The position numbers and the translations under genes were made by a program. Positions 1,364-18,326 of a stretch of 64,000 nucleotides of DNA are shown piece after piece; the stretch's first letter is position 1; every line of letters begins with the position of its first letter. The stretch is from assembly GCF_000949635.1 (NCBI RefSeq), contig NZ_BAFN01000001.1:2655673-2719672 (forward strand), read 5' to 3'. The DNA comes from Candidatus Brocadia sinica JPN1. GTDB taxonomy: Bacteria > Planctomycetota > Brocadiia > Brocadiales > Brocadiaceae. Below the pieces are notes generated by a model. The model saw only the letters and a program-made list of their open reading frames with translations. It did not search any database and had not been told where the DNA came from.

Positions 1364-2143
1364 TTACATGTCCATTTTCATCATGAATGCAACAATAGCC
1401 AATGCCACCCCAACAACTATGCGATAATACCCGAACCATTTAAAACCGTGTTGTTTCAGGAAACCGATAAAGGCCTTGATAGCAAACATAGCTACGACAA
1501 ATGCTATGAAACTCCCCAGGAGCAGGATGACTATATCAGGGTGTTGGATTGTCTTGTAAGAACCCATCATTTTCTTGGCGCTTGCGCCAAGCATGGTTGG
1601 AACAGCAAGAAAAAATGAAAATTCAGCGGCTGTTCTCCGGTTAAGCCCTACCACCATTCCTCCAATGATGGTGGCTGCAGCCCGTGATACCCCCGGGATC
1701 ATTGCGATACACTGAAAGCAACCGATTTTAAAAGCCTGGAACCAGGATATTTCCTGTTCTTCCATTCCTTCGGCGTGTTTAAACCACCGGTCTGCAAAGA
1801 TCAGGACAATTCCCCCAAGAAAAAGTGAGGCAATGACTACCCATACGTTTGCCAGTAAATAGTCGATATAATCTTCCAGGACAAAACCAACAACTGCAGC
1901 AGGCAGGAATGCAAAGGCTAGTTTCAGATAAAACCGGAAAGCGGTGAAAAACTTACGCCAATAAAGCACTACCACCGATAAAATAGCGCCAAGCTGAATA
2001 ACGATTTCAAAATTCTTTGTCAGGGTATTATTGCTGATACCCATAAATGTAGAAGCGATTACCATATGGCCGGTAGATGAAACGGGTAAAAACTCGGTGA
2101 TACCTTCAATAATGGCAAGAATCAATGCTTCTAAATAGGTCAT
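1364..2143 (-). CDS. uppP: Undecaprenyl-diphosphatase UppP (BacA)
   Basis: Integral membrane enzyme that dephosphorylates undecaprenyl diphosphate to recycle the lipid carrier of peptidoglycan and polysaccharide synthesis. At 259 residues it is near the normal family length. The two active-site signatures are present: EGITEFLPVSSTGH at 13-26 and PGVSR at 150-154. About eight hydrophobic segments cover the rest. It is the last gene of a minus-strand run that begins at the EIIA-Ntr gene, but the gap upstream is 66 bp and contains a hairpin, so co-transcription is uncertain. The ATG start at 2143 gives the standard N-terminus just before the first helix. Confidence 0.96.
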   Translation of the reverse strand: MTYLEALILAIIEGITEFLPVSSTGHMVIASTFMGISNNTLTKNFEIVIQLGAILSVVVLYWRKFFTAFRFYLKLAFAFLPAAVVGFVLEDYIDYLLANVWVVIASLFLGGIVLIFADRWFKHAEGMEEQEISWFQAFKIGCFQCIAMIPGVSRAAATIIGGMVVGLNRRTAAEFSFFLAVPTMLGASAKKMMGSYKTIQHPDIVILLLGSFIAFVVAMFAIKAFIGFLKQHGFKWFGYYRIVVGVALAIVAFMMKMDM

Positions 2144-2186: not shown

Positions 2187-2212
2187 TAGGGACACGCTGC
2201 GCCGTGTCCCTA
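2187..2212. repeat. Perfect palindrome over the rlmI-like stop codon
   Basis: TAGGGACACG at 2187-2196 and its exact reverse complement at 2203-2212 form a 10-bp stem with a six-base loop. The stop codon of the upstream methyltransferase gene is inside the right arm (2210-2212). A related, less perfect version lies at 48107-48132. It may act as a terminator or mRNA-stabilising hairpin, or simply be one copy of a dispersed palindromic repeat. Confidence 0.7.
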
Positions 2213-3406
2213 CGGACTATTTCTCTTTTGTATGGGGAATACCCTTGCAAAGACGGCCTTAAGGTATCGCCCTTCGGGAAAGATGGTAGAAAAGGGATGG
2301 TCTGATGACGCCCCCGCAAGCCGAAAAATTTGCAATACAACTCCAGCTTCTGCTGCAGAACGGGTCAGAATGGAAAGAAAGTCCCTCTCTGATACGAGAC
2401 CTGAGCAAGAGCAGGTCAGCAGGATGCCGCCTGGCCTGAGTACCTGTACGCCAAGCCTATTGATGTCCCCGTAGGTCCGATGTGCACGCTTGATCTCTTC
2501 GGTGCATCCGGCAAGTTTTGCCGGGTCGAGGATCACGACGTCGGCCTGTATACCCTTGCTGATCATCATACGCAGGTGATCAAACACGTTGACGTGTTGG
2601 AACGTTACTTTTACAGCGTTTAGTCGTGCATTTTCTTGTGCAGTTTCCAGTGCTTTTTCATCCAGGTCTATTGCCGTAGCCGACTTTGCGCCAGCCAGCA
2701 TTGCAGAAATGGCGAATCCACCGGTATAACAAAAACAATCAAGCACCTCCTTACCGTGGCAATACTGTGACAATGTTAAACGGTTCTCACGTTGATCGAG
2801 AAAGAAACCCGTCTTGTGTCCTGTTTTGAGATTTACCTTCATCTTTAACTGATTTTCTTTAATTTCTACGGAATCGGGACCGGGATAAGCCCCGGCTGCC
2901 CTTGAAAAATCTACACCCTCCTTGGCGGCAATTCGTTCATCCGGGCGCACAACAACCCGGGTGCCAGGGTAAAGGGACTGTAAAGGCGATACGATCAACT
3001 CCATTATTCCAAGGTATCCGGCAGAGTATGGTTCCACGACGAGGACGCCGGCGAATTTATCAATAATCAGCCCCGACAGACCATCGGCTTCCCCATGTAC
3101 TAATCGGTAGCTGTCAGAAGCCTTCTGAATCCCAAGAATTTCCTCACGAAGTGTCCTGGCCTGTTCCAGTTTTTTGAAGAAAAATTCGTGATCTAACTGT
3201 TCGGATATATTCTCGGTTAACAGACGGATGCCAATATTACTTTTGTAATTGTAGATACCCCTGCCAATAAAGGTTCCTTCCTTTGAGATTACCTCTACGA
3301 GGGAGCCTGGCTGCAGGCGTTTTTGAGGATGCCGGATCATCCTGGTGAAGATCCATGGATGAAGTGAGTTTCTCCGGGCCTTTAATGAGATTACCGGTAG
3401 TTCCAT
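2210..3406 (-). CDS. rlmI: Class I SAM-dependent rRNA methyltransferase, RlmI-like
   Basis: Predicted cytosine-C5 rRNA methyltransferase of the RlmI/YccW family (398 residues, normal length). An N-terminal PUA RNA-binding domain (about 1-70) is followed by the linker signature KTGHKTGFFLDQREN (194-208) and a Rossmann methyltransferase domain. SAM motif I is VLDCFCYTGGF (221-231), an acidic ADLDE-like strand end follows at about 246-250, and DPAK lies at 294-297 where family members usually have DPPK. A TCSCS segment near the C-terminus is typical of the family. The substrate nucleotide cannot be told from sequence. The stop codon lies in a palindrome. Confidence 0.88.
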   Translation of the reverse strand: MELPVISLKARRNSLHPWIFTRMIRHPQKRLQPGSLVEVISKEGTFIGRGIYNYKSNIGIRLLTENISEQLDHEFFFKKLEQARTLREEILGIQKASDSYRLVHGEADGLSGLIIDKFAGVLVVEPYSAGYLGIMELIVSPLQSLYPGTRVVVRPDERIAAKEGVDFSRAAGAYPGPDSVEIKENQLKMKVNLKTGHKTGFFLDQRENRLTLSQYCHGKEVLDCFCYTGGFAISAMLAGAKSATAIDLDEKALETAQENARLNAVKVTFQHVNVFDHLRMMISKGIQADVVILDPAKLAGCTEEIKRAHRTYGDINRLGVQVLRPGGILLTCSCSGLVSERDFLSILTRSAAEAGVVLQIFRLAGASSDHPFSTIFPEGRYLKAVFARVFPIQKRNSP

Positions 3407-3558: not shown

Positions 3559-4884
3559 TTACGATAAACATATCTTTGCAAAGAATAAGGATACTATGGT
3601 ACCGGTAGAGATATTAATGAAATTAACAACTTCGTTACTTATCCATTTTCTTCGTTCGATAGTCGCACCCAAAATACTTTCAACCGTAGTGCCAACAAAC
3701 GATGCAATTATTACGATGAGTATTGACTGAAGGTTGATTACGTGTAACACATAAGCTTCGGCGCCAATAAAAGCAGCAGACAGTATCCCCAAAATAGTTC
3801 CTTCGACAGATATTGCCCCATCCGTACCTACAGGGACAGGTTGCATCGTAGTAATTAAGATTGGCCTTTTGCCATAAATTTGTCCCAATTCGCTGGAGAT
3901 TGTATCGAAGGTGGCCGTAGCGAAGGCGGCAACAAAGGCAGCCCTGTAAATTTCTGGGGTATTGGTCAATAAGGCCATAACAGCCATCACAAGCCCAACC
4001 CCGCCCTTCGCAATTACGTGTTTTGAGCTGCGCTTGCCCTTGTTTTCCTGGGCAACTCCATGTGAAGCCTTCCACGTATATTTATATCTGGATGACCAGC
4101 TGCCGAGTAGAAAAAATGTAAAGAGGATTAAAAATCCCCCTGGACCCAGACAGAGATAGATGATGGTACCGAGAACAACCCCGCTGATTAAGCCAGACTT
4201 ATTTACGGTTTTTACATAATAAGCAAGCAGGCCAAATGCTACATTGACGCTAAAAGCAGTGAAGATGTTATGAGCATGACTGAGATGTTTCCAATTCACG
4301 ATAGTCGCAGCGTAAAGAAATAGCCCTGCAGCCAGCGGCACCGTAATATTGTCGTCGATCTTCAGCGGCAATGATTCAACTCCTGCCGTTATGAAAGATG
4401 TCAAAAACGCCGTGATCAGCAGATAGTGCCACGGTAATGGTGTTTGTAACGGGCTCAGATTTACCCACCACATGAGAATTGCAGCGCCCAGTCCGCCAAA
4501 GAAGACAAAGGCTATAAAACCGATCCATGACTTTTCAGGATTCCAGGGAAGTTTCTTTTTCCCATAAGTCTTTCCAAAGAGATTAGAGCAACCATCGCCC
4601 AGGGACATGATTGCCCAGGCGCCTGCCACAATATACATTTTTTTATGAAAGAGAAGGATAAGGGCAAAGACCATTACCCCATAGATCAGTTTACCGAAGG
4701 AAAAGCACCTTTCCATCTCATGTTCCCGGAATGAGCCCTTTACGAATATCTTTGATAAGAAAAGTCCATACAGAATTCCCGCTAATGCAAACAGGAGCGC
4801 TTGCCAGGTATTTAAATATTTTAATAAAAAAACGAATATGACTGGCACGATGTGTTCAATCCTGCGTTTTGTTTCATTTGTCAT
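3559..4884 (-). CDS. Fused VTE5/Sec59-like lipid kinase and DUF92 (VTE6/TMEM19-like) membrane protein
   Basis: A polytopic 441-residue protein with two recognisable halves. Residues 1 to about 205 resemble the CTP-dependent dolichol/phytol kinase family (Sec59, DGK1, VTE5): SLGDGCSNLFG (94-104), a basic GKKK stretch (108-111) and KSW (118-120). Residues about 212-441 are a DUF92 domain, with DTISSELG (327-334) and PVPVGTDGAIS (349-359). In plants VTE5 phosphorylates phytol and the DUF92 protein VTE6 phosphorylates phytyl phosphate. The fusion could therefore convert an isoprenoid alcohol to its diphosphate in two steps; that is inference. It is 17 bp from the DUF21-CBS gene upstream, suggesting an operon. 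Confidence 0.8.
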   Translation of the reverse strand: MTNETKRRIEHIVPVIFVFLLKYLNTWQALLFALAGILYGLFLSKIFVKGSFREHEMERCFSFGKLIYGVMVFALILLFHKKMYIVAGAWAIMSLGDGCSNLFGKTYGKKKLPWNPEKSWIGFIAFVFFGGLGAAILMWWVNLSPLQTPLPWHYLLITAFLTSFITAGVESLPLKIDDNITVPLAAGLFLYAATIVNWKHLSHAHNIFTAFSVNVAFGLLAYYVKTVNKSGLISGVVLGTIIYLCLGPGGFLILFTFFLLGSWSSRYKYTWKASHGVAQENKGKRSSKHVIAKGGVGLVMAVMALLTNTPEIYRAAFVAAFATATFDTISSELGQIYGKRPILITTMQPVPVGTDGAISVEGTILGILSAAFIGAEAYVLHVINLQSILIVIIASFVGTTVESILGATIERRKWISNEVVNFINISTGTIVSLFFAKICLS

Positions 4885-4901: not shown

Positions 4902-5924
4902 TTATTCTTCAGGACTGGTCTTTTCCCTCAATTCCCCGAAAATGACCTTTAAGATATCTTTTATCTCTATTAAACCCGATACATTGCCGCCGGCATCTCT
5001 GACAATGGCGATGTGTAATCCCTTTTGCTGAAATTCTGTAAATATCTTACTAATCTTGTTGTTTTCAGAGACAAAATAGGGTTCCATCATAAGGTCTTCG
5101 AGGACAAAAAGAGAATTATTTGCCACCATATTAATGATTCCTTTTGCATGAACGATCCCAATTACCTTATCAATGCACTGCCTGTACACCGGATACCTGG
5201 TGTAGCCTTCTTCTGCAACGATTCTTACGATGTCCTCACGTCCCATGTCTGCATTTATGGCTACAATCTGTTGTCTGGGTACCATAACCTCTTTAGCAAG
5301 CTTATCACTAAATTCAAATATTTTGCGCAATAACTTGTGTTCACCATCAGCTAATACACCCGTCTCTCCACTTTCCCTGATAATATGTTTTACCTCTTCA
5401 CGGCTGAAAATCGTTTTTTTATACTCAATTTTCACACCAAATAATTTAAAAAAGAGGTAGGTAATATAGGTAATTAATGTAACGCTGGGTGATAAGACCC
5501 ATCGTATCCACTCATATGGTTTGATGATCAACAGGGAAAGTTGTTCAGGAAACTGGGTTGCTAACACTTTTGGAAACGTTTCCGCAAACAAGAGTAAAAT
5601 GAAGGCGACGATTACTGGCGCAAGAATTACACCCCATTCATGCAAATAGTATATTGCGATCGTTGTTCCTATCGTTGATACTATGGTATTGACAATATTA
5701 TTTCCCGTAAGGATGGTGCTGAGAAGTTTATCTGGCTCATTGACACTATTATAAATAGCGACGGCTCTTTTGTTCCGTTGTTTGATCAGATAGTCCAATC
5801 GTACCTTGTTAATGGAAAAAAGAGATGTTTCGGTTAGTGAAAAAAAGGCGGAGACGATCAGGAGGATAAGAAAGAGTATCAACATAAAAATGATTGTTGC
5901 GGCGGAAAAATGCATGTGGTCCAT
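4902..5924 (-). CDS. DUF21 (CNNM) membrane protein with paired CBS domains
   Basis: A 340-residue CorB/CNNM-type protein, often annotated as hemolysin-like or TlyC. The first 180 residues form the DUF21 transmembrane domain with about four hydrophobic segments and the usual 'SLTETS' start. A CBS pair follows (about 213-335) beginning with EVMVPRQQIVAI. The C-terminal CorC/HlyC transporter-associated domain found in longer relatives is missing: the protein ends shortly after the second CBS domain with a charged tail. Relatives are implicated in magnesium or cobalt efflux; the actual substrate is unknown. It lies between the EIIA-Ntr gene (40 bp upstream) and the kinase fusion. Confidence 0.85.
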   Translation of the reverse strand: MDHMHFSAATIIFMLILFLILLIVSAFFSLTETSLFSINKVRLDYLIKQRNKRAVAIYNSVNEPDKLLSTILTGNNIVNTIVSTIGTTIAIYYLHEWGVILAPVIVAFILLLFAETFPKVLATQFPEQLSLLIIKPYEWIRWVLSPSVTLITYITYLFFKLFGVKIEYKKTIFSREEVKHIIRESGETGVLADGEHKLLRKIFEFSDKLAKEVMVPRQQIVAINADMGREDIVRIVAEEGYTRYPVYRQCIDKVIGIVHAKGIINMVANNSLFVLEDLMMEPYFVSENNKISKIFTEFQQKGLHIAIVRDAGGNVSGLIEIKDILKVIFGELREKTSPEE

Positions 5925-6643: not shown

Positions 6644-7819
6644 TTAAGCCATATCCTTATAGAAACTCTGACCACACCCGAGGTTTTTAAGGCCTAAGAT
6701 TTCTGTGATAGTGGCTCCCACGTCTGCAAAGGATTGGCGAATGCCTAATGATTTGGGATAACCCAACCCCTTCCCGTAAACTAACAAAGGCACATACTCC
6801 CTGGAGTGGTCTGTGCTGGGGGTGGTGGGGTCACAACCATGATCTGCCGTAATAAACAAAATGTCACTTTCGTTAAGCGCTTCCACGATTTGAGGAATAC
6901 TCGTGTCAAAGGTTTTTAGCGCATCCGCATATCCCTTTACGTCGTTTCTGTGACCATATTTCATGTCAAAATCAACGAGGTTGGTAAAAAGTATTCCTTT
7001 GAAATTCCTTTTCATACATTTTATTGTCTGGATAATGCCATCCTGATTGTCCTGAGTGTGGATCTCTTCCGACAACCCTCTGTGTGCAAATATATCCCCG
7101 ATCTTGCCAACGCCGATTACCCCGAATCCATCCTGGAGTGCATGATCCAAAACGGTAGATGACGGTGGCGCCAGAGAGAAATCCTTCCGCCTGTCCGTTC
7201 TGATGAATTGACCGCTTTGTAAAACAAAAGGGCGCGCAATAACCCTGCCGACAGCATGTTCACCTGTTAATATTTTCCGCGCTATTTCACAAATATGGTA
7301 TAAGTCCGGAACGGGAATGACATCCTCGCTGGCAGCAATCTGAAAAACACTATCGGCGGAGGTATATACTATGGGAAAACCCGTCCTGATATGCTCTCTT
7401 CCCAGTTCCCGAATAATCTCAGTGCCTGATGCCGATTTATTCCCCAAAATGGGTCTGCCAATTTTTTCCACAAAGATATCAATAATTTCTTTTGGAAAAC
7501 CATTCGGATAGATTGGGAATGGTTTTGGGGTGATAATCCCCATCATCTCCCAATGACCACAAGTCGTGTCCTTTCCCCTGGAAACTTCTGACATCTTGCC
7601 ATAGAATCCAGAAGGAGTAATTGAAGATGAAATGCCCTTGATAGGCACAATCTTTCCCAGTCCTAAATTTTCCAGATGGGGTAACTGCAATCCTCCCAAA
7701 GCATCAGCTACATTTCCCAGGGTATTGCTGTATTCATCTCCGTATAAATGAGCATCGGGCATAGCCCCAATACCCACACTGTCCAGTACAATAAGGATAA
7801 CTCTTTGAATCGGTATCAT
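6644..7819 (-). CDS. deoB: Phosphopentomutase DeoB
   Basis: Converts ribose- or deoxyribose-1-phosphate to the 5-phosphate in nucleoside salvage; an alkaline-phosphatase-superfamily metalloenzyme. Visible are the metal-binding [13 protein letters not shown] near the start, the [13 protein letters not shown] segment carrying the phospho-acceptor threonine, and [17 protein letters not shown] near the C-terminus. The ATG at 7819 gives the standard 391-residue enzyme. A GTG at 7879 would overlap the upstream stop codon as GTGA and add 20 poorly conserved residues; neither start has a clear Shine-Dalgarno site, so the start is uncertain. The upstream sensor gene ends 57 bp before the ATG. Confidence 0.95.
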
Positions 7820-7875
7820 ATTTGATTCACGACAGGAATAATTCCGGTAACAGATCGAAAGCCATAGGGTTTGTT

Positions 7876-8736
7876 TCACTGAGTTACTTGACCCAACAGC
7901 TTCTTTTGCATGGTTATATCCTTTGTTACGTGTATTGAACCTATGAACTTCCCCGCATCATTAAAATAGGGAAATGCAGTGATATTAAAGATGCCGCACA
8001 TATGGGGGTCTACGATCTCTTCTGTACATGGAGTCTTCTTCTCCATAGATTTACGGTGTGGACATATCTTCCATGGTTCCTCCGTACCATGAAAAATCTT
8101 ATAACATTTTTTGCCAACTATTGACTTAATATCCATATTGAATTTTTTGGCTACTGCCTTGTTAGCCCGAAGAATAGTAAAATCTGTATCGTGTATGCTG
8201 ATTAAATCATTAATGGCGTCAAAGGCGCTTTCCCACTCTATTTTAGAACGTTCTATTGACTTAAATGTGTTCATTAAGGTTGCATTTTCAATACTCACGG
8301 CAATATAACTGGCCAGTGTAGTCATAAGAAGGCTCTCGTATTTGTCATATTCAAAAGCATGAAATTTCTCGGGTATAATACTGAATACAGCCGATAACCC
8401 GATCAGTTTCCGGTTATGAATAAGGGGGGTATTCATAAAGGACGTATATCGTACATCTATAACAGGACGGGTAATAATGTCTTTCAACCGTGTAGAACAT
8501 GGCAGGCACGCATCCTTAACCTTGGAGAAAGGAATTCCTACAGAACAAACCGGCGTGAGGTTTTCGTCATTATTTAACATAAGTACGGATGCATCTGCCC
8601 CGGTAAATACCTTGAAGTGTCTTGTTGCCGTCCGTAAAAATGATTTGTAATCCAAAGCTCTGGAGGATTGTAAAAAAGCGTCCGAAAGGGCCTTTATGCG
8701 GTGGTATAACTTCTTTTCATCTGAAATAGATGACAT
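7876..8736 (-). CDS. GAF-PAS sensory protein without output domain
   Basis: A cytoplasmic protein of about 286 residues. An N-terminal helix is followed by a GAF domain (about 35-165) and a PAS domain (about 175-286) ending in the usual HVTKDIT. No kinase, cyclase or DNA-binding domain follows. The PAS core is cysteine-rich: KCYKIF, then ICPHR, TPC and HMC, a spacing seen in PAS domains suspected of binding a metal or heme. The ATG at 8736 is chosen over a TTG at 8778; no ribosome site is clear. It sits directly ahead of deoB, which does not explain its role. It could feed an unlinked kinase. Confidence 0.7.
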
Positions 8737-9010: not shown

Positions 9011-9763
9011 TTATTTATTTTTAACCTTCACGGTCACTCTTGTCTTCAAACCACCATCTGTCTTAAATTTGACCTTTGCATTACCTGTCTTCTGCGTAGC
9101 TGTAATCGTAAATATAGCCTCACCATTTGCATCCGTATCTTGACTTAGCGGTGTCACCGATATACGCCTCTTACCAGCCTTAACCGTAGCCGTTACCGTT
9201 TCACCAACAACCGGGGTACCATCAGAGCAAGTTACTGTCACTGTTACCTCATCGCTTTCTTCTTTCTTAAGCCGTAGTACATATGGAGATGCAGTTATCT
9301 CTTCGGCTTTGCATCGGGGAGTTGGTGTCACTGTCGGTGTAGATGGTATCAAACCAAAATATTTTTCATCTCCATATGATGTTCCTGCGCTATTCTGTGC
9401 AGCAATCCTGTAATAATAAATAGTTTCTTCCAACAACTTCCCTATATTGATGCTTACCTGTGTATCAGTCGTTCCGGTTACCGTTTGTGTGCTTGATTTA
9501 TTATTATAAGAACCACTGCTTGTACCATAATCAAACCATGCAGTTGTCAACAACCCATGGGCATTGACAATACTTTCCAGAATTACCGAATTGTCACCTG
9601 CCAGTGATGCCTCCCCAGTTGTTACCGTCGGCGGTTGTGGTGTCGGTGTTACAGTTGTCGTTGCTGAAAGTATCGGCGTTTCCTGTGCAGATACCAACTT
9701 CAAACATAAGGTCCCACAAATAATTAACAAACAATAAGAAAGAAAAATAAATCTATTTCTCAT
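9011..9763 (-). CDS. Secreted Fn3-like/Ig-like domain protein
   Basis: A 250-residue exported protein of unknown function. It has a signal peptide (about 1-26, ending near VSA), a Pro/Thr-rich linker (TPTPQPP), a fibronectin-III-like domain (about 45-135, with IYYYRIAAQNSAGTSYG) and a second linker. The last 105 residues are an Ig-like invasin-type domain with the segment ISVTPLSQDTDANGEA. The same module ends the much larger SBBP protein at 10299-13361 with nearly identical wording, so the two are paralogues or exchanged their 3' ends. A surface or periplasmic location is likely. The C-terminal KVKVKNK-type end could be a sorting or anchoring feature, but I cannot show that. Confidence 0.75.
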   Translation of the reverse strand: MRNRFIFLSYCLLIICGTLCLKLVSAQETPILSATTTVTPTPQPPTVTTGEASLAGDNSVILESIVNAHGLLTTAWFDYGTSSGSYNNKSSTQTVTGTTDTQVSINIGKLLEETIYYYRIAAQNSAGTSYGDEKYFGLIPSTPTVTPTPRCKAEEITASPYVLRLKKEESDEVTVTVTCSDGTPVVGETVTATVKAGKRRISVTPLSQDTDANGEAIFTITATQKTGNAKVKFKTDGGLKTRVTVKVKNK

Positions 9764-10298: not shown

Positions 10299-13200
10299 TT
10301 ATTTATTTTTAACCTTCACGGTCACTATCGTCTTCAAGCCAGCAGATTCAAATTCGACCTTTGTCTTACCAGCTTTCTGTGTGGCTGTAATCGTAAACAC
10401 GGCTTCACCGTTTGTGTCTGTATCTTGACTTAACGGTGTAACCGATATACGCTTCTTACCTGACTTAACCGTGGCGGTTACTGTATTAACAACTGGTGAA
10501 CCGTCAGCACATGTTACTAACACTGTTATTTTACCGGTTTCTTCCCTCCCGAGTTTCAGCGTCTTTGGAGATGTCACGATATTTGCAACCTCACAAGGTG
10601 TTGGCGACGGAGTCGGTGTGGGTAATATAGCTGTTTTAAAGTTGTTTTCGCTTCCATACGTGATTCCTGTACTGCTCTGAGCAACTATCCTGTAATAATA
10701 AATGGTTAGAGCAGACAATCCACTTATATTGATACTTACAGATGTATCACTCAATCCACTGACCGTTTGTGTAGATGAAGTACTACTATATGATCCACTA
10801 GTAGTGCCGTATTCATACCATGATGTTGCTGCCAGTCCATTAGCATTAACTGTCCCATTCAATAAAGCAGAATCATATGTTACATTTGAAGCAAACCCCG
10901 TTATAACATTGGGTGGTGAGGCAGAAAGATTACTATCAAAAAATGATATAAATGCATCAAGACCCTCATAACTATGAGAAGTATCATAAGCATCTATTGT
11001 TGTTGGAAAGTTCATTGAAGCTGTCGAACCAGTCACATAAACATTATCACCTGAATTCATAGCTATGGCAAAACTCTGTTCCTCGCTGTATCCGCCCAAA
11101 AATGTGGATGCAATGAGGTTTGCCAAATTTCCGCTAAACTTTGATACAAAAGCATCTGCACTACCATTAAAAAAAATATCATAAGCGCCAAAGGAAGCAT
11201 CAAGGGTCGTTGGAAAATTTGATGACTCAGTTAAACCAGTCACATAGACATTTCCACTTGAATCTATGGCTATAGCATTGGCATAATCACTTGAAGAACC
11301 GCCTAAAAATGTGGATGCAAGCAGGGTTGTTAAATCATCACTTAGTCTCGATACAAAGACATCACCATTACCGTTAAAAGAAGTATCATAAGTATCCGTA
11401 GTTATTGGAAAATCTGCTGACCCTGCTAAACCTGTTACATAGACGTTGTTACTTTTCCCTGACGTCATTGTTATAGAATGAGCAGTATCACCTGAAGAAC
11501 TTCCTAGATAAGTAGATGCAAGCAATCTTGTTAAATCTCTGCTTAGCTTTGCTATAAAAACATCATTACTGCCATTGAAAGAAGTATCATAAGCGGTCGT
11601 AGATGTTGGAAAGTCTGATGACTGAGTATCACCAGCTACATATATATTCCCATCTAAATCTATGGTCATAGAATAAGCAGACTCATTGGACGATCCCCCC
11701 AAATATGTGGATGCAAGCAGAGTTGTTAAACCGCTATTAAATTTCGATATAAAAATATCACTACCGCCATCAAAAGAAGTATCATAGGCATCTGTAGATA
11801 TTGGAAAATCCGATGATAAAGTTCCGCCAGTCACATAGACATTTCCACTTGGATCTATCGCTATGGCATTGCCATAATTATAGGCAGAACCTCCCAAATA
11901 GGTAGATGCAAGCAGGCTGCTTAAATCGCCTTTAAGTTTTGATACAAAGATGTCGTAATAACCGCTATTATTGTAAGAACTATCATAAGTGCCGGGGGTT
12001 GTCGGGAAATCTGATGACCATGTGTAACCAGCCACATAGATATCCCCGCTGGAATCAATGGTGATAGAAGAAGCACTATCCGATCGAGAACCACCCAAAA
12101 ATGTAGATGCAAGGATGCTTGTTAAATTCCAGTTTAACTTTGATATAAAAACATCACCCGTACCGTTAAAAGAAGTATCATAAACACCTAGAGTTATTGG
12201 AAAGTTTAATGACGCAGTTGAACCAGTTACATAAATATTCCCATCCGAGTCAATGGCTATAGAATGAACACTATCCCATTGAGACTCACCTAAATATGTA
12301 GATGCAAGGAGGGGGTCGATGATGAGTTCCTTTGTTTTGTCGTAGGAGGCTACCTTGAAACCGTATTCTGATTGCGGATTTTGGACTTCGGATTTCGGGT
12401 TTGAGAGGTTTGCTTCTGTATGCTGAATTCGATATTCAACAGCCACATCCACCCTCTTTCCATCAATCTCCTGATAAGCCACAGGTTTTGTAAATTTTAC
12501 AGGCCCAAGCTCTGTTTCTACCACAAGTTCTCCGTCTTCGTTTACCTTTAATCCCCCTGTGTCTCCCTTTAGAGAAAGGGGGTTGGAGGAATTTATGCCA
12601 CTCAGACTGATCTTTATCTGATCAGGGCTTGCTCCTGGCTTCACATAAAAGAGTTTTTCTACGTTATTCCCATAAGCCCTCAATTTTAAGTCTATTCCCT
12701 TATAAACCTCACCAAGATTTATCACCTCATATGTTGAGATATTGGTCTTCCACCTTGATGCGTCTTTCCTTTTGAAATAGTTTACCTTCGTTATGGCCTT
12801 TCCTTCGCCTTTGATTTTGTTGACCTTGCCGCCGATGAGTGTTTCTTTAAGGGCAAGTCCTCTTATTTCAGATTTCGGAGTCTGGATTTTAGATTGCGAA
12901 AATGTGTAATCAGCATTTTGAGAAACAATTTTGGGTATCGGATCAAAACATGAAATTAAGAACAAGTCGAAAATTTTGGATTTAGGTTGGATGACGTTAC
13001 CATTTACTTGAGGTCCATAACCCGTTTTCCTGACTCCTGATCTCAGACCACAGAATCTTGTTTCTTGCCCTTCGTCCCTTCCCGGTAATGAATAGACGAT
13101 CTCCCCGTCTTTCGTTACAAAAACTGTTCCACCAAATGTGTTGGCATAAAACTCCACTCTTTCATCGGTCTGTCCCATATTGGCTATGAAAGGTATCTGG

Positions 13201-13361
13201 AGTTTTTTGGTCTTTTGAATAACCTCTGCCTGTGATGGTTTGTCTGCACCCATCTGTCCAGCAAAAAGGGTTTTCGAGAAAGACATTGTGAGCAAAAGAA
13301 CTGTCATGTATCCAAAGGTGTTAAACTTGCCGCATGTAAGACTAAAAGATGCGTTTCTCAT
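10299..13361 (-). CDS. Large secreted SBBP beta-propeller protein with Fn3-like and Ig-like C-terminus
   Basis: A 1020-residue exported protein of unknown function. A signal peptide (about 1-34, ending near LFAG) is followed by an N-terminal domain typical of SBBP proteins (about 40-345, with LIDPLLASTYLG at its end). Seven SBBP repeats follow (about 350-810), each with the pattern IAIDSSGNVYVTG...FPTT...YDTSFNG...DVFVSKL and starting ASTYLGG or ASTFLGG; seven repeats fit a complete seven-bladed propeller. The C-terminus is an Fn3-like domain (IYYYRIVAQSSTG), a TPTPSPTP linker and the Ig-like module shared with the protein at 9011-9763. It is likely cell-surface or extracellular. ATG at 13361. 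Confidence 0.88.
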   Translation of the reverse strand: MRNASFSLTCGKFNTFGYMTVLLLTMSFSKTLFAGQMGADKPSQAEVIQKTKKLQIPFIANMGQTDERVEFYANTFGGTVFVTKDGEIVYSLPGRDEGQETRFCGLRSGVRKTGYGPQVNGNVIQPKSKIFDLFLISCFDPIPKIVSQNADYTFSQSKIQTPKSEIRGLALKETLIGGKVNKIKGEGKAITKVNYFKRKDASRWKTNISTYEVINLGEVYKGIDLKLRAYGNNVEKLFYVKPGASPDQIKISLSGINSSNPLSLKGDTGGLKVNEDGELVVETELGPVKFTKPVAYQEIDGKRVDVAVEYRIQHTEANLSNPKSEVQNPQSEYGFKVASYDKTKELIIDPLLASTYLGESQWDSVHSIAIDSDGNIYVTGSTASLNFPITLGVYDTSFNGTGDVFISKLNWNLTSILASTFLGGSRSDSASSITIDSSGDIYVAGYTWSSDFPTTPGTYDSSYNNSGYYDIFVSKLKGDLSSLLASTYLGGSAYNYGNAIAIDPSGNVYVTGGTLSSDFPISTDAYDTSFDGGSDIFISKFNSGLTTLLASTYLGGSSNESAYSMTIDLDGNIYVAGDTQSSDFPTSTTAYDTSFNGSNDVFIAKLSRDLTRLLASTYLGSSSGDTAHSITMTSGKSNNVYVTGLAGSADFPITTDTYDTSFNGNGDVFVSRLSDDLTTLLASTFLGGSSSDYANAIAIDSSGNVYVTGLTESSNFPTTLDASFGAYDIFFNGSADAFVSKFSGNLANLIASTFLGGYSEEQSFAIAMNSGDNVYVTGSTASMNFPTTIDAYDTSHSYEGLDAFISFFDSNLSASPPNVITGFASNVTYDSALLNGTVNANGLAATSWYEYGTTSGSYSSTSSTQTVSGLSDTSVSINISGLSALTIYYYRIVAQSSTGITYGSENNFKTAILPTPTPSPTPCEVANIVTSPKTLKLGREETGKITVLVTCADGSPVVNTVTATVKSGKKRISVTPLSQDTDTNGEAVFTITATQKAGKTKVEFESAGLKTIVTVKVKNK
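10930..12311 (-). repeat. Seven tandem SBBP coding repeats
   Basis: Tandem degenerate repeats of about 190-200 bp inside the large secreted-protein gene. Each encodes an ASTYLG/ASTFLG start followed by IAIDSSGNVYVTG-like and DVFVSKL-like segments. Seven copies are visible. Drift between copies is moderate, so they are old but recombination-prone. Confidence 0.8.
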
Positions 13362-16988: not shown

Positions 16989-18326
16989 TTATTCATTCTT
17001 TCGTAGCAGTGAACGCGCTGTAACAAGAAACAGGTTTATTAAGAGCCTTGGGTGTACACTCTTGAAAAAGATATCTTTATAAGGGGCATTCCCGGTTACC
17101 GAATTCCATAATACCTCATTCATCCGTTTGGTTTCCCAAGTATCCGGATGTTCAAACATGTATTTTATATGACTTGATACGAGGTGTTTCTCTCCGGATA
17201 TGATATCATTTGCAGTGAGGATTACGCTTCCATAGACATTGTCTCTGCCCAAGAGTATTTTTGCTGGATTGAAATATCCTTTTTCAAAATCCTTCTCCGT
17301 CACACCCTTTTCAAATGCGGTCTTTGCAGCCAGTTGTGCCGTGGTAAATGCAGAATCTATACCGTTTTTATAGGTACGGGATATCCCGGCATCCCCGATA
17401 ATAACAAACCTGTTTGTGTACGGATGTCTGGCATGATTAACCGGTATCTTCGGGAAACAGATGCATCGTTTCTTTACATCATCCCAGCCTTTCGGGAGCA
17501 TCTCCTGTATTTTCGGTTGGTTTAAAAACTCATTTAGCAGGGTCTTGTTCATCTCTTTGGTTCCCACAAGGCATATGGTCAAAAAATCTCCTTTGGGGAT
17601 AAATGAGGCGAATCGTATAAATTTTAAGCCCAAGGAGAACACGTAGATATTGTTTCCATACAATGCATTATTTACCGCTCTTGTAGGGTAAATATCCATG
17701 ATACAGGTTTGAACGGTTTTCGGGGGGATATAGCCAAAACCTAATTTCTGTAATTCATAAAGGGTGTCTGAGTTGACCCCAAAGGCGCCTACGACGAGGT
17801 CGGCTGTATATTCGGTTTTTGAAGCTTCTTTTCCATAGGTAAGTTTTATTGAGTCTTTTGGATTTTTGGGTATTTGAATATTTGTTACAGGATCGAGAAT
17901 AACCTGGGCTCCCATTTCTTTAGCGTGTTCTAAGAGAAAATAATCAAAACTTTCACTCACGTCGCGATCGGCGAACCTGGGCCCGCTGCCACGAAATACC
18001 GTAACAATCCTGGTCTTGTGGGGATAGTGTAAAGGTATGCCATATTCAGGTACCTGGAGGAAATACCCTTCTATTTCTTGCTGGATACATGAGGGGGGAA
18101 GGTGGATGTTATGTTCCGGAAGTTTCCTGAGGAGCGCCTCGGAAAGCACACCCGCACTCATGTTACAACCGGGGGCACCTTTCCTGGCAAAATCTTTTTT
18201 CTCGAAGATTGTTACCGAAACCTCAATGCCTAACTGCCTTGCATATGTCAAGGCGAAATGTGCAAAAAAACTCCCGGCAGGACCACCGCCAATAACTGCT
18301 ATTTTTGCCCCATTTTTTAGCTGCAT
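16989..18326 (-). CDS. FAD-dependent oxidoreductase, geranylgeranyl-reductase-like
   Basis: A 445-residue flavoprotein. The N-terminal FAD-binding motif is AVIGGGPAGSFFA (about 10-22), and FVIIGDAGISRTYKNGIDSAF near 310-330 is the second FAD contact of the p-hydroxybenzoate-hydroxylase/geranylgeranyl-reductase fold. Members reduce isoprenoid chains or hydroxylate aromatic rings; the substrate is not visible here. CNMSAG at about 55-60 keeps the family's small-residue turn. It is followed by the MNT/HEPN pair, an unlikely functional partner. ATG at 18326. Confidence 0.75.
   Translation of the reverse strand: MQLKNGAKIAVIGGGPAGSFFAHFALTYARQLGIEVSVTIFEKKDFARKGAPGCNMSAGVLSEALLRKLPEHNIHLPPSCIQQEIEGYFLQVPEYGIPLHYPHKTRIVTVFRGSGPRFADRDVSESFDYFLLEHAKEMGAQVILDPVTNIQIPKNPKDSIKLTYGKEASKTEYTADLVVGAFGVNSDTLYELQKLGFGYIPPKTVQTCIMDIYPTRAVNNALYGNNIYVFSLGLKFIRFASFIPKGDFLTICLVGTKEMNKTLLNEFLNQPKIQEMLPKGWDDVKKRCICFPKIPVNHARHPYTNRFVIIGDAGISRTYKNGIDSAFTTAQLAAKTAFEKGVTEKDFEKGYFNPAKILLGRDNVYGSVILTANDIISGEKHLVSSHIKYMFEHPDTWETKRMNEVLWNSVTGNAPYKDIFFKSVHPRLLINLFLVTARSLLRKNE

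Follow-up and report, generated by a model that had tools for sequence, protein, structure and literature searches.

A fused Sec59-like and DUF92 protein of Candidatus Brocadia sinica as a probable bifunctional prenol and prenyl-phosphate kinase

According to reviews, the enzymes known for the second step of prenol phosphorylation are few and come from plants and cyanobacteria (PMC9782597), and the plant cytoplasmic kinases of farnesyl phosphate and geranylgeranyl phosphate are still undiscovered (PMC13415981). The plant enzymes VTE5 and VTE6 accept not only phytol and its phosphate, but also geranylgeraniol and geranylgeranyl phosphate, and prenol phosphorylation in plants is preceded by the farnesal-reducing dehydrogenase FLDH (PMC13415981). 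In 2011, COG1836, which corresponds to the DUF92 (VTE6) family, was tied to phytol-phosphate metabolism through plant-prokaryote comparative genomics (PMC3223725). A fusion of a Sec59-like domain with arCOG02245 (DUF92) was described by Makarova et al. in 2015 for Methanosarcina, e.g. Mbar_A3310 of Methanosarcina barkeri, and an isoprenoid kinase role was proposed for its DUF92 family (PMC5898192). The architecture reported here is the same, and the fusion as such is not novel. In the open-licence literature, we found no report on the activity of any bacterial Sec59-DUF92 fusion.

The window, by which we mean the whole analysed stretch of 64,000 nucleotides from the anammox bacterium Candidatus Brocadia sinica JPN1, carries the fused gene on its minus strand. 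The gene, its domains and its motifs are located as follows.
3559..4884, minus strand: fused membrane protein of 441 aa, a prenol-kinase-like half followed by a DUF92 half; open reading frame with ATG start
4276..4884, minus strand: N half, residues 1-203, CTP_transf_1 / VTE5-Sec59-like domain (PF01148)
3562..4275, minus strand: C half, residues 204-441, DUF92 (VTE6-like) domain (PF01940)
4591..4599, minus strand: GDG motif, residues 96-98; G96 and D97 invariant in 21 homologues
4525..4533, minus strand: KSW motif, residues 118-120; K118 nearly invariant in 21 homologues
4348..4356, minus strand: DDN motif, residues 177-179; D178 and N179 nearly invariant in 21 homologues
3901..3906, minus strand: DT, residues 327-328; invariant in 22 DUF92 homologues
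3808..3840, minus strand: PVPVGTDGAIS, the DUF92 signature, residues 349-359

To assign the two halves, the protein was compared with Pfam and NCBIfam models. In the Pfam scan of the full-length protein, PF01940 was found on residues 214-428 with 192.1 bits (E=1.5e-56; gathering threshold 27.5), and the C half covers positions 3-250 of the 251 positions of this model. TIGR00297, a narrower hypothetical-equivalog model of NCBIfam, scored 203.1 bits on the fused protein and just missed its cut-off of 205.85. We therefore claim membership of DUF92, but not equivalence to TIGR00297. No first domain was reported for the N half in the full-length Pfam scan. When residues 1-203 were scanned alone, PF01148 (CTP_transf_1) was matched with 27.7 bits (E=3.1e-6; gathering threshold 24). 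None of the NCBIfam models matched these residues, so that a phytol kinase is not separated here from dolichol-kinase-like proteins. In an alignment of 21 homologues of the N half, G104 and G122 are invariant in addition to G96 and D97, and E170 is nearly invariant together with K118, D178 and N179. The half carries the conserved acidic, K-S and DN motifs of the CTP_transf_1 / Sec59-VTE5 superfamily. Consistent with the preliminary description, which had read a VTE5/Sec59-like kinase joined to DUF92 from the GDG, KSW and PVPVGTDGAIS motifs, the HMM searches assigned both domains to the one polypeptide; an assignment of one domain only would have refuted that description.

The fused frame is kept end to end in other Brocadiaceae with 75-85% identity, and with 81% in the closest named locus, that of Candidatus Brocadia sp. 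AMX1. For the whole protein, a dN/dS of about 0.10-0.16 was obtained. Taken separately, the halves show a dN/dS of 0.22 (N half) and 0.13 (C half) in comparison to the nearest relative, and values of 0.08-0.16 in comparison to the remaining relatives. Neither half is broken, and purifying selection acts on both. The end-to-end conservation of the frame and the low dN/dS indicate that the fused gene is genuine and that the open reading frame did not arise by accident. It provides the single DUF92 match in the genome of 4.08 Mb.

To compare fused with separate genes, as the preliminary description had proposed, 294 Planctomycetota genomes were surveyed, 58 of which contain DUF92. A Sec59-like domain and DUF92 share one frame in 14 of these 58 genomes, and separate genes for the two lie in one neighbourhood in 25 more, mostly overlapping or in tandem. 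In the remaining genomes, DUF92 occurs by itself, the locus is truncated at a contig end or no class was assigned. Within the Brocadiaceae, all or part of the fusion was found in 8 of 33 genomes, which belong to two genera. A tree of 39 concatenated N and C sequences contains five changes between the labels fused and separate, at least four of which are forced by starred branches; these changes may be gains or losses of the fusion. In this tree, the fusions of the Brocadiaceae group together in a single supported clade. Each of seven cyanobacteria carries one stand-alone homologue of the N half (open frame of 219-271 aa; 1e-30 to 1e-35 with the N-half profile), and their DUF92 genes stand alone elsewhere in the genome. 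At least nine long frames, mostly from one family, contain DUF92 behind other sequence. DUF92 forms the C-terminal end of the long frames at L037, L040, L041, L044, L049, L052, L124, L126 and L134; in two of them, checked with Pfam, a ComEC Competence domain lies upstream in frame, in one case together with a metallo-beta-lactamase domain, which is an unexpected architecture.

The gene neighbourhood was assessed in 40 larger planctomycete loci, which were searched for the kinase parts, for a short-chain dehydrogenase (SDR) and for the gene between split kinase genes. A UbiA-family prenyltransferase accompanies the kinase pair in half of them (20 of 40, from 10 family codes), directly adjoining in 19 cases and 1.5 kb away in one. 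An SDR is present in 9 of the 40 loci. Unsupervised clustering of the neighbouring genes added a fifth member, a PF01663 phosphodiesterase of 690-740 aa, which is strong in 14 of 40 loci and in many cases immediately precedes the N gene. In four loci, a gene resembling prenyl diphosphate synthases lies nearby (one classified). No uppP-like cluster stood out among the recurrent neighbours in these other planctomycetes. The genes occur in the orders N-C-UbiA, C-UbiA-N and SDR-C-UbiA-N, and such a varied order with constant membership is expected from functional linkage more than from the descent of one block. The best models for the UbiA protein are chlorophyll synthase (ChlG), homogentisate phytyltransferase (HPT) and geranylgeranylglycerol-phosphate (GGGP) geranylgeranyltransferase, all of them below their cut-offs; among solved structures, digeranylgeranylglyceryl phosphate synthase (PDB 6M31, E=1e-18) is its best match. 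In a comparison with HpnA, SdmB and others, the SDR of the Brocadiaceae fusion carriers is closest to HpnA with 240-261 of 368 bits, and no cut-off was met.

It seems likely that the fused protein is a bifunctional membrane prenol and prenyl-phosphate kinase that feeds a UbiA prenyltransferase. The N half would phosphorylate an isoprenoid alcohol in a reaction of the VTE5/FOLK/Sec59 type that presumably uses CTP; the second phosphate would then be added by the C half in a VTE6/DUF92-type reaction. In this presumed order of steps, a free prenol would leave the protein as prenyl diphosphate, which most likely feeds the UbiA protein of the ChlG/HPT/GGGP-transferase side that is encoded elsewhere in the genome. 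The presence of both halves in one chain suggests that the monophosphate may be handed over. Split but neighbouring kinase pairs in other planctomycetes strengthen the stepwise reading in the manner of a Rosetta stone. Enzymes of the ChlG, HPT and GGGP-transferase type mostly use C20 chains, and judged from this type of UbiA, a substrate of C15-C20 appears to be favoured; the chain length is a guess on this ground. In relatives, an HpnA-like SDR precedes the fused gene and might interconvert prenal and prenol; it may resemble plant farnesol dehydrogenase, which serves as a lead, and plant FLDH is a model for its role. A stepwise conversion of alcohol to diphosphate, as suggested in the preliminary description, is still the best reading, but phytol in particular is not indicated: VTE5 and VTE6 also take the geranylgeraniol forms (PMC13415981), so that no link to chlorophyll is needed. 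Beyond the kinase, we tentatively propose an undescribed isoprenoid salvage-and-attachment pathway of Planctomycetota, a reading which has slightly less in its favour than against it. It would comprise the SDR, the prenol kinase, the prenyl-phosphate kinase, a UbiA of the ChlG/HPT type and the PF01663 phosphodiesterase; its product would be a prenylated compound new to these bacteria, the two kinases would have become fused on at least two occasions, and a reduced version would be left in the anammox genus Brocadia. The open-licence literature yielded no description of the planctomycete gene set.

In the window, the fused gene is accompanied by the following genes.
4902..5924, minus strand: CNNM-CBS membrane protein, upstream flank and synteny anchor (PF01595, E=8.5e-47)
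2210..3406, minus strand: RlmI-like SAM methyltransferase, downstream flank and synteny anchor (PF10672/PF17785)
1364..2143, minus strand: uppP (BacA; PF02673, E=2.2e-79)

Both Brocadiaceae genera share the order CNNM-CBS, SDR (where present), fusion and RlmI-like gene, followed by uppP where the contig reaches. The other Brocadiaceae carriers with a readable interval have the SDR, an extended SDR, between CNNM and the fusion. In the window genome, the interval between these two genes is 17 nt only; an SDR is absent from the fusion locus, and the SDRs found genome-wide are distant (best 31% identity). The orthologous UbiA gene is located in the same genome at G000:C1:597296-598288 and reaches E=8e-96 with the operon profile, compared with 1e-5 or worse, or no score, for the other three UbiA-family genes of the genome. 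The Brocadia set is split over two loci. Beside the UbiA gene lies a remnant of the PF01663 phosphodiesterase with parts missing (L204:10346-11442; G000:C1 near 598350-599440). Aligned to a relative of 743 aa, it covers only residues 10-232, 336-368 and 568-661 and is spread over more than one frame. In relatives, the phosphodiesterase is whole. The set is thus reduced in this genome, with an intact kinase and prenyltransferase. This UbiA was found in 7 of the 33 Brocadiaceae genomes, and 5 of those 7 carry the fusion. The co-occurrence is imperfect, with five genomes having both genes, three the fusion only and two UbiA only (Fisher p=0.004, with kinship ignored).

The absence of the SDR and the phosphodiesterase remnant indicate that the pathway may be decaying in this genome. 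The fused protein could then be a leftover in which at most one of the halves has kept its use, and the longer branch of the window protein (0.10 vs 0.031 for its sister) would fit such a decay. On the other hand, the dN/dS of 0.22 and 0.13 for the two halves against the nearest relative, the intact frame and motifs of the fusion and the intact UbiA gene argue against this explanation, which we regard as unlikely.

Against the reading as a bifunctional kinase, DUF92 kinase activity rests on plant VTE6, and the superfamily also holds the true cytidylyltransferases CdsA and CarS. As a rival explanation, we considered that one or both halves are CdsA/CarS-like cytidylyltransferases, which would make a CDP-activated lipid. 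In favour of this, the Pfam family matched by the N half is that of the cytidylyltransferases, and among solved structures CarS and CdsA rank first for both halves. The C-half model gave CarS 5GUF (Z 9.1) and CdsA 4Q2G/4Q2E (Z 8.4) as top structural matches, and the N-half model folded alone gave CarS 5GUF (Z 8.7) and CdsA 4Q2G (Z 8.4). Z values for helical proteins are not decisive alone; TRIC channels reach Z 8.3 against the N-half model, and helical bundles can score such values by arrangement alone. The CarS and CdsA values are, however, in line with what the sequences show and with an HHpred result published for DUF92 (PMC5898192). MATE/MurJ transporters, which a VIA run on the whole protein had offered as the N-half fold (Z about 5), were discarded because they were no longer top matches once the N half was folded alone. 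AlphaFold predicted the whole protein with a mean pLDDT of 89 and a pTM of 0.64, with a low-confidence linker near residues 199-202, and the N half alone with a pLDDT of 88 and a pTM of 0.85. Sequence searches of the PDB with the full protein and both half-profiles returned nothing meaningful, and with Foldseek alone no match fell below E 0.001.

Profile comparisons with hhalign were used to examine how the halves relate to each other and to other proteins of the genome. The profile of 21 N halves aligned with that of 22 DUF92 halves at E=5.6e-5, in comparison to E 0.2-0.67 for control comparisons with unrelated membrane proteins. In this alignment, the GD97 region of the N half is paired with D327 of the C half, and ES motifs align too. 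Judged from these profiles, the N and C halves are remote relatives with a shared, predicted CTP-transferase core. The genome also encodes a 445-aa protein in which a HAD/SerB-like phosphatase is joined to a Sec59-like kinase domain (L003:1417-2754, minus strand; G000:C1 near 3853500). Similar matches with similar frame lengths occur in most Brocadiaceae, and it is odd to find a phosphatase combined with a lipid kinase in a single chain. The DUF92 profile aligned with this HAD-linked kinase domain at E=1.3e-4. To the same domain, and thus to the Sec59/VTE5 type, the N half is far closer (E=5e-16) than to the CdsA of the genome (E=2.9e-5); in a single-sequence search it scored about equally with the HAD-linked kinase and with one cyanobacterial protein. 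Moreover, the genome already has a complete CdsA (L002, E=2.7e-50), and the characterised DUF92 protein VTE6 is described as a phytyl-phosphate kinase (PMC9782597). The cytidylyltransferase explanation appears unlikely, somewhat less probable still than a decaying pathway, and the bifunctional kinase is preferred over it.

The preliminary description had pointed to uppP and to a geranylgeranyl-reductase-like protein 12 kb away as gene context. uppP is indeed nearby, but in genomes without the kinase the CNNM gene adjoins the RlmI-like gene (L088, L089, L091, L092, L097, L098, L102-L105, L107), and uppP follows at these sites where the contig extends (L088, L098, L102). As the order is kept at empty sites, the comparison removes uppP as evidence of function, and it was rejected as a functional partner; the CNNM-CBS gene is probably not functionally linked to the fused kinase either. 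Recycling of undecaprenol or dolichol-like long carrier alcohols together with uppP is the least probable explanation: uppP does lie 1.4 kb downstream on the same strand, Sec59 homologues phosphorylate dolichol and archaeal DUF92 genes adjoin uppS (PMC5898192), but CNNM-RlmI-uppP persists in relatives without the kinase, and the partner genes in other planctomycetes are UbiA, SDR and phosphodiesterase, with no prominent uppP-like cluster. The product of 16989-18326 resembles a geranylgeranyl reductase weakly (TIGR02032, 68.8 bits with a cut-off of 158.8); unrelated genes lie between it and the fusion, and it was rejected as a partner. Pfam assigns it to DAO, and no PDB relative was found for it. 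The gene context first noticed is mostly incidental, and the informative neighbours, UbiA, SDR and phosphodiesterase, lie outside the window.

Further observations concern other genes of the window. A phosphopentomutase gene (DeoB; 6644-7879, and loci L087 and L097) is near-complete in some relatives and fragmented in G049 and G206; in other relatives, the interval from PtsN to the GAF/PAS gene showed no copy of it. It is a second patchy gene of the syntenic block. Positions 10299-13361 encode an apparently secreted protein of 1020 aa with many repeated segments, and 9011-9763 encode a shorter protein resembling its C-terminal part.

Outside plants, little is known about the second step of prenol phosphorylation. 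With repeated fusions and conserved neighbours, a single fused protein offers a clean system for studying DUF92 as a bacterial prenyl-phosphate kinase, and the linked UbiA hints at where the diphosphate may go. Compared by description, Mbar_A3310 has the same domain pair in the same order in one polypeptide, both domains belonging to the CTP-transferase superfamily (PMC5898192). It is archaeal and has uppS as its reported context, whereas the fusion described here is from Planctomycetota and has UbiA, SDR and phosphodiesterase partners in relatives. The plant phytol kinase VTE5 and phytyl-phosphate kinase VTE6 are membrane proteins of homologous domain types, by family assignment, and catalyse consecutive reactions. 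However, they are encoded by separate genes, as are their counterparts in the seven cyanobacteria checked, and no role in tocopherol or chlorophyll metabolism is evident in an anammox bacterium. With dolichol kinase Sec59 (COG0170), the N half shares the GD...K-S and DN motifs and a predicted membrane fold, but differs in being fused to DUF92. CdsA (4Q2E/4Q2G) and CarS (5GUF) rank first among solved folds for both halves; on the other hand, identity is low (11-19% over aligned residues) and a different reaction is expected. The fusion is already known from Methanosarcina, whereas the pathway around it is possibly new.
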